This document shows positions 11,802 to 16,281 of a stretch of 64,000 nucleotides of DNA, piece after piece. The first letter of the stretch is position 1, and each line of letters starts with the position of its first letter. The notes beneath the pieces are model-generated. The model made no database searches and was not told where the DNA came from. It saw only the letters and a program-made list of their open reading frames with translations. Made by a program: the position numbers and the translations under genes. The DNA is taken from positions 1 to 64,000 of the forward strand of contig NZ_FOPV01000011.1 of the NCBI RefSeq assembly GCF_900113575.1. The letters run 5' to 3'. The stretch is from Nitrosospira sp. Nsp14 (lineage in GTDB: Bacteria > Pseudomonadota > Gammaproteobacteria > Burkholderiales > Nitrosomonadaceae).

Positions 11802-12095
11802 TTACTTTGCGGAAGCTTTGGCTTCCTTCTTGACCGCAGAGGTCGTCCCGACCGTGACATCCTTGCGTAACCGCTTCATGGTCACGGGACCGATGCCGCT
11901 CACATTCTGCAAATCATCTATCGATTTGAAAGAACCATTCTTCTTGCGGTGATCGACAATCGCCTTGGCTTTGGCAGGCCCGATTCCCTGCAGCGTTTCC
12001 AGTTCCGCTTGGGTAGCAGTATTGATGTTGACTCCCGCGAATGCTGTGCCCATGAGTGCGAATAGCGTGACGATAATCAGAAACAGTTTTTTCAT
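11802..12095 (-). CDS. ComEA-like helix-hairpin-helix DNA-binding protein
   Basis: A protein of 97 residues with a signal peptide (1-20, cleaved after AFA) and two helix-hairpin-helix motifs: NINTATQAELETLQGIGPAK and then SIDDLQNVSGIGPVTMKRL. A basic Lys/Ala tail follows. Exported HhH proteins of this size are periplasmic DNA receptors for natural transformation in many proteobacteria (ComEA). No other competence gene is in the window, so that role is inferred. Confidence 0.85.
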   Translation of the reverse strand: MKKLFLIIVTLFALMGTAFAGVNINTATQAELETLQGIGPAKAKAIVDHRKKNGSFKSIDDLQNVSGIGPVTMKRLRKDVTVGTTSAVKKEAKASAK

Positions 12096-12540
12096 GGACT
12101 TTTCCTCTCATTATTCCTAGGCGGATGGTTACTGGAAGGGTTGGAAGAATTTCTGATGGAACAAGCGTATCTTCTTAAAAGCCAGAACTTCGCAGCACCG
12201 CCTTCAAACAGTAAGGGAGCGGGCAGCTGGCGCGTCATCGTGAGGCACTTATTTTTTTTTGAGACCTGTCTGATTAGATTACGACCGGCCGGAACGAAAA
12301 CTAATAGGGTTGCCTCTGATCGTTATGAATTTTTCTCCATATTTATTTGTGTTCCTTCTACATGAAGTCGGACTTGAACTCATGCATTGAGTTCACCCCC
12401 AGCTTGCGCTAGCCTTGTCAGCGATTATGAATAATTTGATTGTCTGCAAGGTAAAATGCATCCTTTGCAAGAGTGAAGTTCTGTTTGGTATGGCTCTTGA
12501 CCGGAATTAAATAAGTCCCGGCGGGAGCCCATCGAATGAC
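12096..12540. other. Intergenic region before the nuclease/ATPase pair
   Basis: 445 bases between divergent genes. It contains a T9 run near 12250 and A/T-rich DNA from 12420 to 12480, where TTGATT and GTAAAAT could be weak promoter boxes for the downstream pair. No gene is supported. Confidence 0.35.
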
Positions 12541-13770
12541 ATGGTCCCCAATATGACTCGGCCTTTCAAAAATAAGAAGAAACAGGAACAAACGCTTTCC
12601 CCAAATAGCAGTAACGACCTACTGTCGCTACTTACAGATAAGCCTACCGATGAGAAGGCTGGAGTCAACGCCACCCTTGGATTCTCCTATCAACATTGGT
12701 GGGCTACTCTCAAGGCCACGGAGCTTTATGCACAAGGAAACGATTTCGCCATCGGCATGGAGATTAAGGAAGATGTCGCGGTCCTTGACTCGCCGACGGT
12801 GCCAACTACTGTTCAGTTTTATCAGGTAAAGAAACACGAACGAGAGGGGGTCTGGAGTTGGTCAAATCTATTGAGGTCCACCTCGAAAACAGGCACCTGT
12901 GAACTCTCCCCGCTTGCGAAGCTTTATTCACGCCGGCACACGTTCAAGTCCCACCCCACCAAGTTGTGCTTCATCTCCAACCTCGCTTTTAAGGTGCCGC
13001 TTGAGGAAGGGACAAGCCTTCAACATTCAGACGGGTGCGGACTACACGAGTTTATAGCTAGCAAGTCTGAGGAGGTTAAACAGAAGTTAGCCTCGCAACT
13101 TGGAATTTCCTCTGATAAGGTCGACCTGACCGATTTCACGCTTGAGCGGACAAACCTCCCCCTGGGCGAGCAAGATACATTCATTACTGGCAAACTCAGT
13201 ACCCTAAGCGATACAGGGAAACTTCCTTTCGAAATATCTCGACCTCATATATCGGCACGCATGCTCGCGGCAGAGTTCCAGCAGAAAGGGACAAATACGG
13301 ACTACGCGAACACGTTCCACAAGCTTCGGGCTCGATGTCTGTCTCGTGATGAGATTACGCAAGTGTTGCAAAGTATTGAGTCAGCCGGTCCCCCCGTTCA
13401 AGTAGCCTTGGAGGAAGCACTTACGCGCCTTGACCACGAGCAGTATCACTATGGGAAGCGCGATCAAATTCGACGAGAAAAAATCGCGTTGTGCGCCCAC
13501 CTTTCCGACCGGACCAACATACAAGTTGCGCGGTTATATCGCTTGTTCGTTTATACGCGAAACAAGGTCCAAACCGAGTTGGAAGAAATTGCAAAGCTTG
13601 GAGAAATAATGGAGTATCTTGTCGCGGAAGCAACGGAAGAACAGCCCCTCGAAGTGGCGGGACTTCCAAAAGGATATCTTAATGGTCTCGCTCTTTTGGT
13701 GATTAAGAATGCAATCAATGTCCACCTATTCTCTTCTGCGGCTCATCCGAAACCTGAGGAACAAGAATGA
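12541..13770 (+). CDS. DUF4297 (Cap4-type) nuclease-domain protein
   Basis: A protein of 409 residues. The N-terminal third matches the DUF4297 nuclease domain, a PD-(D/E)xK-like fold: GFSYQHWWATLKATEL (47-62), the acidic block GMEIKEDVAVLD (72-83) and FYQVKKHE (93-100) with the Q-x-K pair. This is the double-strand DNA cutting domain found in Cap4 of CBASS and LmuA/DdmA of Lamassu systems. The remaining 300 residues are helical and match nothing I know; there is no SAVED sensor domain. The start could also be Met5 (12553). It overlaps the ATPase gene by 4 bases, so the two are surely co-expressed. Inference: the toxic effector of a two-gene defence module. Codon use looks more A/T-rich than in its neighbours. 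Confidence 0.75.
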   Translation: MVPNMTRPFKNKKKQEQTLSPNSSNDLLSLLTDKPTDEKAGVNATLGFSYQHWWATLKATELYAQGNDFAIGMEIKEDVAVLDSPTVPTTVQFYQVKKHEREGVWSWSNLLRSTSKTGTCELSPLAKLYSRRHTFKSHPTKLCFISNLAFKVPLEEGTSLQHSDGCGLHEFIASKSEEVKQKLASQLGISSDKVDLTDFTLERTNLPLGEQDTFITGKLSTLSDTGKLPFEISRPHISARMLAAEFQQKGTNTDYANTFHKLRARCLSRDEITQVLQSIESAGPPVQVALEEALTRLDHEQYHYGKRDQIRREKIALCAHLSDRTNIQVARLYRLFVYTRNKVQTELEEIAKLGEIMEYLVAEATEEQPLEVAGLPKGYLNGLALLVIKNAINVHLFSSAAHPKPEEQE

Positions 13771-15545
13771 CGCAGCAAGTCACTTTCAAGAGGCTTTGGC
13801 TCGTATCCGAGAGAGACGGAGCGGCGAGAAAAATTTTTCTAGACAGTCAGAAAATTCTGTTGCTGGGAACGAACGGGACGGGGAAATCCCGGGTCAGTAA
13901 GAATATATTTTGGGCTCTAGGGTGTGAGCCTCCGAAAAGGAACGCCGGCGCATGGGACCCGGATGCAATAGCGGCGCTCGAGTTTTCCTTAGGTCAGCGT
14001 ACTCTTGTGGCAATTCGAGCGGGACGAGCACAAGGTTTGTTTGATTCCGAGGGAAGAATGCTCTTTGGTTCTTCCAATCATGCCGCATGGTCAAACTTTG
14101 CGAGCCAGCTTTTTGGATATCGACTAAAACTCCAGCGGCCAAGCGGGACAGCTTACCACTTGGCAGGCCTAGATTATCTAACCGTTCCCTTCTACATTGA
14201 CCAAGATGGGAGTTGGGGAGCATCCTGGGCCACATTTACCAACTTGGGTCAGTTTTCGAGCTGGAAGAACCCTGTGTTCGCATCTTTTACTGGCCAGCGT
14301 CCGAATGCTTATCTTGAGGCAAAGCAGCGCCGTAATGAGGCGATTGGACGCCTTACTACATCTAAGAAAGAATTAGACGCTCAGCGAAAGGCATTTCGCC
14401 GTGTGAGAGAAACGCTGCCAAAAAATCTCCCCTCACTTGATCTGACAACATTTCGAGCTGAACTAGTAAAACTGGCATCCAGTGCAAAAAGAGTTCAACA
14501 GCAACAGGTCAGGGTTAGAGCCGCACTTCTCGCGTTGGTAAACGGACGCCAGCAGGTTCAGGCTGAGCTGAAGTTAGCTGTGGGTTCGCACCAAGAATTA
14601 GAAAAAGACTTAACTTACCTGTCCAATATTCCCGACAGTACGGACATTGAGTGTCCAACTTGTGGAACCTTTCATCGAACCTCATTCCATGCGCGACTTG
14701 CATTAATCACTGATGCGGATTCAATGGCAGCCCTTGTAGCAGAGTTGAATAAGCAACTAGATGGCGCACGCAAGCGCGAAGTAGAAATTCGGCAGGAGCT
14801 CAGAGAAATAGAAAAGGAGGTTCTAAACTTTGAAAAGCTGTCTCAGGAAAAAAAGGCACGATTGAAGCTGGATGAGGTTCTCGCTTCCCATAGCAAGCGA
14901 ACGTTGGACCGGGCGTTTCGTGAGGTTTCTCAAACACTCACTCATAAGGTCGATGAACTCCAAGAGGAGGTCGAGGAACTGAACGAAATTGTGAAAACAT
15001 TTGAAGATAAAACGAGGCTGAAAGAAGTGTCTTACTATTACGCCGCCAAGCTTCGACACCTGTCTGAAGCATTAAAAATTCCAGAAGATGAGAGAGTGGA
15101 CGAAACTAAGCTAGGTTCACGGCCCGCGTCCGGAGGAAGTTCGGGGCCGCGCGCGACGCTAGCTGTTCACCTGGCGTTGCTCGCAACCAACGTCCAATAC
15201 GGCGACTCGGTACGTTTGCCTTTCGTAGTCGATACACCGCAGCAGTCCGGACAAGATGAAAATAACCTAAGGCGAATGATTGATGTTATGCAACAGCACG
15301 CGAGCGAGAATCATCAACTTCTGCTCGCCATTGAGCGCCTGCCTGCGCAAACGGATATATCAAGTTTTCACGTTATCCCTTTTCCAAAGGGTGAACGGCT
15401 ACTTCGGAAAACTGAATTCGGCGATGCGGTTGGTGCTCTTCGGGATATGTTACGGATTCTCAAAGCAAAGGTATTGGAAGTCGACTCCGAAGCGCAAACG
15501 ACAGAGAGTCCAAGCGCTGAGACTGATTCCAGTAGAGAACACTAA
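13767..15545 (+). CDS. Small SMC/Rad50-like ATPase with zinc-hook motif
   Basis: A protein of 592 residues built like a miniature Rad50. Walker A is LLGTNGTGKS (Lys40, Ser41). Two coiled-coil arms (about 185-275 and 305-430) flank a hook, ECPTC at 295-299, in the exact middle. The ABC signature is SGGSSG at 455-460 and Walker B is VVDTPQQSGQ, with Asp489 followed by Thr-Pro instead of the usual Glu. YIDQDGSW in the head is a marked conserved-looking block. Hook proteins dimerise through zinc and sense DNA ends. With the overlapping DUF4297 nuclease it resembles LmuB of Lamassu or the ATPase of ABC three-component systems, but no small third gene (LmuC) lies on either side. Confidence 0.8.
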   Translation: MTQQVTFKRLWLVSERDGAARKIFLDSQKILLLGTNGTGKSRVSKNIFWALGCEPPKRNAGAWDPDAIAALEFSLGQRTLVAIRAGRAQGLFDSEGRMLFGSSNHAAWSNFASQLFGYRLKLQRPSGTAYHLAGLDYLTVPFYIDQDGSWGASWATFTNLGQFSSWKNPVFASFTGQRPNAYLEAKQRRNEAIGRLTTSKKELDAQRKAFRRVRETLPKNLPSLDLTTFRAELVKLASSAKRVQQQQVRVRAALLALVNGRQQVQAELKLAVGSHQELEKDLTYLSNIPDSTDIECPTCGTFHRTSFHARLALITDADSMAALVAELNKQLDGARKREVEIRQELREIEKEVLNFEKLSQEKKARLKLDEVLASHSKRTLDRAFREVSQTLTHKVDELQEEVEELNEIVKTFEDKTRLKEVSYYYAAKLRHLSEALKIPEDERVDETKLGSRPASGGSSGPRATLAVHLALLATNVQYGDSVRLPFVVDTPQQSGQDENNLRRMIDVMQQHASENHQLLLAIERLPAQTDISSFHVIPFPKGERLLRKTEFGDAVGALRDMLRILKAKVLEVDSEAQTTESPSAETDSSREH

Positions 15546-15822
15546 TCCAAGCACTCTTGCTTGCGAGAACGATACGAGACGAATACAGCGCGTGTTAGGC
15601 CGAACAGAAGATGTTCAAAATAGAGCAGCATCACGAAATTGACGACCTAGCGGCCGGAATTCGCCCTCGGACACGTTCACAGGACGTGCCGATCCGCCTC
15701 TTTTACTTTTAAAAAAAAGTCGTCGCTTCCCAAAATATCGCATACGCTCAAAAAGTTGAAATACGAAAAAGGTCTGCAATCTCTCGATTACGGCGGATGT
15801 TTACGAATTAACGAAAGCGCCA

Positions 15823-16281
15823 TTAAAACGGAATATCGTCATCCATATCATCGAAGCCGGTACCGCTCCGCGCCGGCGCCTTGTTACCTGACGGGCTGGG
15901 GGCATAACTACTCTCTTCCCTCTCTCCGCCTTCGTAGCTGCCGCTGCCGGGTTTGCTGCCGAGCATTTTCATGTCGCTGGCAATGACGTCCGTGGTGTAG
16001 CGTTCGACACCTGCCTTGTCAGTCCATTTGCGTGTTTCCAGCCGTCCTTCGACATAGACGGGACGACCCTTCTTGAGGTATTCGCCTGCGATTTCCGCCA
16101 GCTTGCGGTAAAAGGTAACCCGGTGCCACTCGGTTTTTTCCTGCTTTTCGCCGTTTTTATCCTTCCAGGTTTCAGTTGTCGCCAGGGTGATATTGGTCAC
16201 GGCGTCTCCATTCGGCATATAGCGCGTCTCGGGATCTTTGCCGAGATTTCCGATGAGGATGACCTTGTTAACTGATGCCAT
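15823..16281 (-). CDS. ssb: Single-stranded DNA-binding protein
   Basis: A protein of 152 residues: an OB fold (1-110, starting [20 protein letters not shown]), then a disordered Gly/Ser/Pro linker, and the acidic tip DMDDDIPF that docks recombination and repair proteins. It binds single-stranded DNA as a tetramer in replication and repair. Its ATG shares a base with the stop of the upstream transporter gene (TAATG), so translation is probably coupled. It is convergent with the nuclease/ATPase pair. Confidence 0.97.

Follow-up and report, generated by a model that had tools for sequence, protein, structure and literature searches.

A predicted Lamassu type I gene pair at a variable comEA-ssb junction in Nitrosospira sp. 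Nsp14

We analyzed a 64,000-nucleotide stretch of DNA from Nitrosospira sp. Nsp14 (assembly GCF_900113575.1, contig NZ_FOPV01000011.1, positions 1 to 64,000 of the forward strand; hereafter the window) and in particular two overlapping genes, lmuA and lmuB, that an earlier note made from the sequence alone had singled out as a candidate compact defense system. We are confident that the pair is a complete, probably active Lamassu type I anti-phage or anti-plasmid module, its function being predicted from family membership, intact motifs, gene arrangement, predicted folds, and sporadic occurrence, all of which were computed here. The pair itself is not new: it is one more type I Lamassu in the known two-gene form, and its main use is as a distant, well-conserved homologue. 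Its location is the less expected part, and most of the modest interest of the case attaches to it: the pair occupies a junction between comEA and ssb that looks like a small defense hotspot without a recognized integrase.

Features of the gene pair

The two open reading frames (ORFs) and the motifs within them lie at these positions of the window:

12541..13770, plus strand: lmuA, predicted Cap4/DUF4297-type PD-(D/E)XK nuclease effector, 409 amino acids (aa) (ORF, Pfam, PADLOC, Foldseek)
12655..13206, plus strand: Cap4 nuclease domain, residues 39-222 (Pfam PF14130)
12823..12831, plus strand: Q95-V-K97, catalytic Q-x-K (alignment of 17 LmuA; E38 and D78 likewise invariant)
13767..15545, plus strand: lmuB, predicted Rad50/SMC-like ATPase sensor with a short coiled coil and zinc hook, 592 aa (ORF, PADLOC, Foldseek)
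13866..13889, plus strand: Walker A, residues 34-41, with Lys40 (alignment)
14193..14216, plus strand: YIDQDGSW block, residues 143-150 (alignment of 14; also in the solved 9ux7_A)
14652..14663, plus strand: CPTC zinc-hook motif, residues 296-299 (alignment)
15129..15146, plus strand: ABC signature-like SGGSSG, residues 455-460 (window protein)
15231..15239, plus strand: end of Walker B, D489-T490-P491, without the catalytic Glu (alignment)

LmuA matches the Cap4/DUF4297 nuclease family of Pfam (PF14130, E = 6.6e-22, residues 39-222) and a PADLOC LmuA model (3.8e-55, residues 27-324; the second-best model spans 25-368), and LmuB matches a PADLOC LmuB model (9.7e-126, residues 3-566 on model positions 2-562 of 565). 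The profile searches that the earlier note had proposed thus bear out both its DUF4297 nuclease and its Lamassu-like reading, and a failure of the nuclease to match DUF4297, which it had named as grounds for giving that reading up, did not occur. NCBIfam and PHROGs scans of the pair gave nothing more specific. Across 17 aligned LmuA sequences, E38, G41, D78, Q95, K97, K127, and G217 do not vary, and position 74 is E or D throughout, in agreement with the acidic block (72-83) and Q-x-K motif (95-97) described earlier. Because E38, D78, Q95, and K97 are kept in 17/17 sequences, the LmuA nuclease should be active. The C-terminal part of the LmuA model is mostly helical over about 230 residues (168-399), rather than the 300 first suggested.

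The LmuB motifs read from the letters (Walker A with Lys40, CPTC at 296-299, SGGSSG, and a Walker B ending in Asp-Thr-Pro) are each in place. Lys40 is kept in 14/14 aligned LmuB sequences, and both hook cysteines, Cys296 and Cys299, are present in 13/14. Y143, D145, Q146, and W150 of the YIDQDGSW block are invariant in the 14, and the solved LmuB 9ux7_A carries PFYIDQDDSW in the same place; the block is therefore real, but it marks LmuB more widely than the family that the earlier note thought it might define.

A Walker B motif usually ends in D-E-P. All 14 aligned LmuB sequences keep the D and the P but place S, T, or A between them, within a D-[S/T/A]-P-x-Q pattern (15231-15245 in the window) that is common to 14/14. 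A review gives a Glu-to-Gln change at Walker B as general in Lamassu, with low or no hydrolysis inferred (PMC10586767); judging from the alignment, this LmuB clade has undergone the same loss of the catalytic Glu via residues other than Gln. The departure from Gln might be taken to mark a new two-gene defense type, separate from Lamassu. To that idea we give next to no credence, as both proteins strongly match many PADLOC LmuA and LmuB models, and the solved 9ux7_A has Asp-Ser-Phe at the aligned position, so that Walker B varies within the Lamassu family.

The predicted folds point to the same family. The best Foldseek match of the LmuA model is 9ux7, "CryoEM Structure of LmuAB-DNA complex" (2.4e-05), and that of the LmuB model (AlphaFold, pLDDT 80.8) is also 9ux7 (7.8e-19), ahead of the three-subunit LmuACB structures. 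In addition, a profile of the 14 LmuB sequences finds 9ux7_A over nearly its whole chain (4.2e-42).

The overlap of the lmuB start with the lmuA stop (4 bases, 13767-13770), which the earlier note had reported with both ORFs, was confirmed, and a GAGG motif lies 7 bases 5' of the lmuB ATG; together they form the pattern expected for translational coupling of the two genes. The pair had been judged A/T-richer by eye, and its GC content is indeed lower (lmuA 0.495 and lmuB 0.494 versus 0.546 for the window outside the comEA-ssb segment; whole window, 0.543; sliding windows were also examined).

The third-gene question and the homologous loci

The earlier note proposed that the pair had lost a third subunit or was a distinct two-gene type. 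Neither is supported: PMC12409362 defines the two-gene LmuA-LmuB form, the first to be described, as type I and gives the name type II to the form with three genes. Of the Lamassu systems that PADLOC's authors detected, about 10.2% were found to have LmuC (PMC8565338). The review treats a set of three components as usual, LmuC being "lacking in some systems" (PMC10586767), and our LmuC scan covered the ORFs of the locus, with the rest of the genome not searched. Both points leave some room for a degenerate type II Lamassu or ABC-three-component (ABC-3C) system that has lost LmuC or MC, and either no longer works or relies on an LmuC encoded at another place in the genome, but we consider this very unlikely. 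Type I, as defined above, needs no LmuC. We assembled 17 loci with relatives of LmuB (eight from the homologue search, one, G040, from the genomes of relatives, and eight of the 11 plasmid matches, H2, H10, and H11 being left out). In 16/17 the nuclease gene lies directly 5' of the ATPase gene; the two overlap by 4 bases at the closest and stand 113 bp apart at the widest, which leaves no room for a gene between them. The survey of neighbors suggested in the earlier note thus yielded no third gene: PADLOC gave no LmuC match among five small ORFs in or beside the pair or among six genes beside plasmid pairs (L039, L049, L050, L052, and L054), in scans run without a positive control for the LmuC model. 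Furthermore, the LmuB fold is closest to the LmuAB complex, with LmuACB behind, and in LmuA the Pfam matches are the Cap4 nuclease and one at chance level, with no C-terminal domain of the ABC-3C type. A downstream third partner may exist at L050 and L054, because a same-strand gene closely follows LmuB there. Two weak matches among the small ORFs of the window pair were treated as chance: PDC-S05 models (0.0013-0.014) on a 63-aa ORF that spans the gene junction out of frame, and HEC-06 (0.02).

LmuB is sporadic in occurrence, as is typical of defense genes. It occurs once in its own genome, and a single-sequence search gave no match in 22/22 other congeners (one of them, G001, only 80% complete). 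Among the remaining 38 relatives searched, the pair is present in G040, with LmuB 33% identical, and a class-wide draw of 369 genomes had LmuB in the own genome only, among the matches listed, in which no more than three candidates were scored for each genome. Fixation of homologues in all relatives, which the earlier note had held would count against a defense role, was therefore not what we found. The closest examined homologous pair is that of Pseudomonas caspiana. Beside the plasmid pairs, a GajA-like ATPase gene followed by a helicase gene adjoins one (L052:4991-6781), and a neighbor of another (L049) is annotated as an AbiH-family gene. At L054:4710-7194, a RT_UG35-like fragment is followed by an annotated reverse transcriptase. 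No DNA relatives of the insert were found on plasmids, a scan of viral contigs that detects close relatives only gave no LmuB relative, and 13 phage records each cover about 39% of LmuB at its N-terminal end.

The Rad50-like head, hook, and coiled coil of LmuB could also suit a Rad50/Mre11-like DNA repair pair with a housekeeping rather than a defense role. We regard this as highly improbable in view of the patchy distribution (LmuB missed by single sequence in all 22 congeners), the nuclease, which is of the Cap4 type and not an Mre11 phosphoesterase, the other defense-type genes that the segment holds in some relatives, and the homologues on plasmids.

Several results weigh against the assignment to an intact Lamassu type I system. 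Pfam gave LmuB no ABC-family domain above the curated cut-off, and no sigma-70-like promoter was found upstream of the pair in a promoter/terminator scan whose sites were fewer than in shuffled sequence. Searched as single proteins against the Protein Data Bank with phmmer, the two proteins found no Lamassu chain, which profiles and folds alone recover. The LmuA model is of moderate quality (pLDDT 71.7), and the structure check that the earlier note had called for, although it placed 9ux7 at the top for both proteins, gave modest TM-scores (0.35-0.50 overall; 0.35-0.45 for LmuA and 0.47-0.50 for LmuB), the alignments behind the AlphaFold models being small (8 sequences for LmuA and 7 for LmuB) and the coiled coil being able to bend. 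The 17-sequence LmuA profile finds the solved LmuA 9ux7_C marginally (0.031), prefers Hachiman 8zue_A (1.6e-5), and even scores an unrelated spider-silk chain, a chance match, higher (0.016). With the LmuB profile, 10/22 congeners have weak short matches (2.2e-5 to 8.3e-4, at most 116/567 positions), which we read as coiled-coil or P-loop noise. No LmuA was found at L008, a 7.4-kb contig with a shortened LmuB, and in L009, L051, and L053 LmuB is short or broken into two frames, which suggests decay of some Lamassu copies. The shortened or split LmuB of L053 lies near transposase genes.

The comEA-ssb junction

As the earlier note had said, the pair lies between a ComEA-like gene and ssb, for which Pfam gives HHH_3 and SSB matches. 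The segment and its flanks are:

12096..15822, no strand assigned: variable segment holding the pair, 3727 bp, between comEA and ssb
11802..12095, minus strand: comEA-like (HHH_3) gene, conserved flank (ORF, Pfam)
15823..16281, minus strand: ssb, the other conserved flank (ORF, Pfam)

According to Pfam, the ComEA-like helix-hairpin-helix gene adjoins a cysM-like PALP gene, and beyond the other end of the segment ssb is accompanied by an MFS gene and uvrA; we derive the names comEA and cysM from the HHH_3 and PALP matches. We found comEA and ssb to be neighbors in 21/22 other congeners (the exception is G017, where no comEA was found adjoining ssb). The gap between them is 15-268 bp in 14/22, 749 bp in G016 (looked at as ORFs only), and 2.0-6.0 kb in 6/22, with a different cargo in each of these six; with the own genome included, 7/23 genomes have an occupied junction with differing cargo. 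Scans of the six cargos with PADLOC and Pfam gave matches to defense families in five of the six and to an ORC/CDC6-like ATPase alone in the other (G004):

G022: dCTP deaminase (6.1e-166)
G015: SIR2-PNTD (1.8e-206), short pAgo (9.3e-210), and an SH3 protein
G007, L044:920-3964: UG5 reverse transcriptase-nitrilase (1.8e-220), frame interrupted by a stop
G006, L045:8799-14142: CARF6 (4.6e-142), ORC-CDC6-like (Pfam only, 3.4e-132), PRTase-CE (2.5e-65), and a methylase
G005: GmrSD_N/NsnA-like (8.9e-62), HEPN protein (Pfam only, 3e-11), and a methylase
G004, L046:12677-14245: a single P-loop ATPase whose ORC-CDC6-like match is short (1.9e-9); of the six cargos, the weakest case

At ssb, the two nearest relatives are G022 and G015 (90% DNA identity), yet their cargos differ from each other and from that of the window. 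The UG5 gene of G007 is probably inactive there, because a stop interrupts its frame. The G004 ATPase, to which known families give only weak matches, and the G006 four-gene set could be assigned to no characterized system from the scans and are candidate new systems.

To judge whether such gaps are peculiar to this site, we compared it with 14 neighboring junctions in the same 22 congeners, leaving out the own genome because the site was chosen for its insert. Gaps of at least 1.5 kb occur at 6/21 comEA-ssb junctions versus 1/263 neighboring junctions (G020, 1535 bp), and gaps of at least 600 bp at 7/21 versus 2/263. The Fisher test gives p = 5.2e-7 at 1.5 kb, a value that is optimistic because the genomes are related and their relatedness was not corrected for. 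No integrase or transposase was found by Pfam among 14 cargo proteins (ORFs of at least 90 aa, or 80 aa for G004; shorter or overlapping ORFs lay outside the scan), and the repeats at the insert ends are short and chance-like. Among 20 genomes of other genera of the family, taken from 56 non-congeners with an ssb match, the mfs-ssb order is kept in 20/20, and comEA or cysM was found beside ssb in 0/20 over the 9 kb downstream (in L122 the contig ends after about 6 kb); as far as tested, the site is therefore genus-specific.

These findings suggest a fuller proposal, to which we give roughly even chances: that the ssb-comEA site is a genus-specific defense hotspot at which compact systems without an integrase of their own are swapped whole by recombination via the conserved ssb and comEA-cysM flanks, with natural transformation as the likeliest route and Lamassu type I as the current occupant. 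Among the matches listed in a search of open-licence papers (titles and starts of abstracts), none describes such a hotspot. For a genus of presumed ammonia oxidizers, the junction would provide a readily recognized location of what looks like an exchange of defense genes; an ammonia monooxygenase subunit (PF02461, 5.7e-125) is encoded in the genome.

Proposed mechanism and comparison with known systems

In its resting state, LmuB would keep LmuA inactive. A LmuB dimer, joined via the zinc hook and the ATP-bound heads, would clamp foreign DNA, probably at ends or hairpins, which Lamassu senses according to PMC12904381. DNA binding would then free LmuA to form an oligomer, the active Cap4 nuclease (a tetramer in the systems studied; release of LmuA into an active tetramer appears in an addendum to PMC12409362), and active LmuA would cut DNA indiscriminately, killing or halting the cell before the phage can spread. 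In the two-gene form, LmuA would have to dock directly on LmuB, without LmuC. Because the catalytic Glu of Walker B is missing, LmuB probably binds ATP but hydrolyzes it slowly, and activation may therefore be close to one-way.

Type II Lamassu (LmuACB/DdmABC; 9hqx, 9hqu, 9uxh, and 9nyg) shares the ATPase fold and gives weaker nuclease matches, but it has LmuC, which was not found among the ORFs at the window pair. Hachiman HamA (8zue) has a related nuclease domain, but the sequence match is confined to the N-terminal domain, and its partner is a helicase and not an SMC-like ATPase. CBASS Cap4 belongs to the same nuclease domain family as LmuA (Pfam, Foldseek); the window LmuA, however, has no SAVED match in Pfam, and its neighbors are ComEA-like and SSB genes rather than a cyclase. 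The solved type I Lamassu, 9ux7, which is the top structural match of both window proteins, likewise combines a Cap4-type nuclease with a Rad50-like ATPase (LmuB chain of 562 aa versus 592 aa here), carries the YIDQD-SW block and Cys-x-x-Cys at the hook, and has no LmuC in its entry title. It differs in that its sequence is distant (no phmmer match), its LmuA chain has 315 aa versus 409 aa in the window, and its Walker B reads Asp-Ser-Phe rather than Asp-Thr-Pro. The Pseudomonas caspiana pair (L002) lies in another chromosomal setting, but its LmuA and LmuB are 39% and 47% identical to those of the window, and its genes have the same 4-base overlap with nothing between them.

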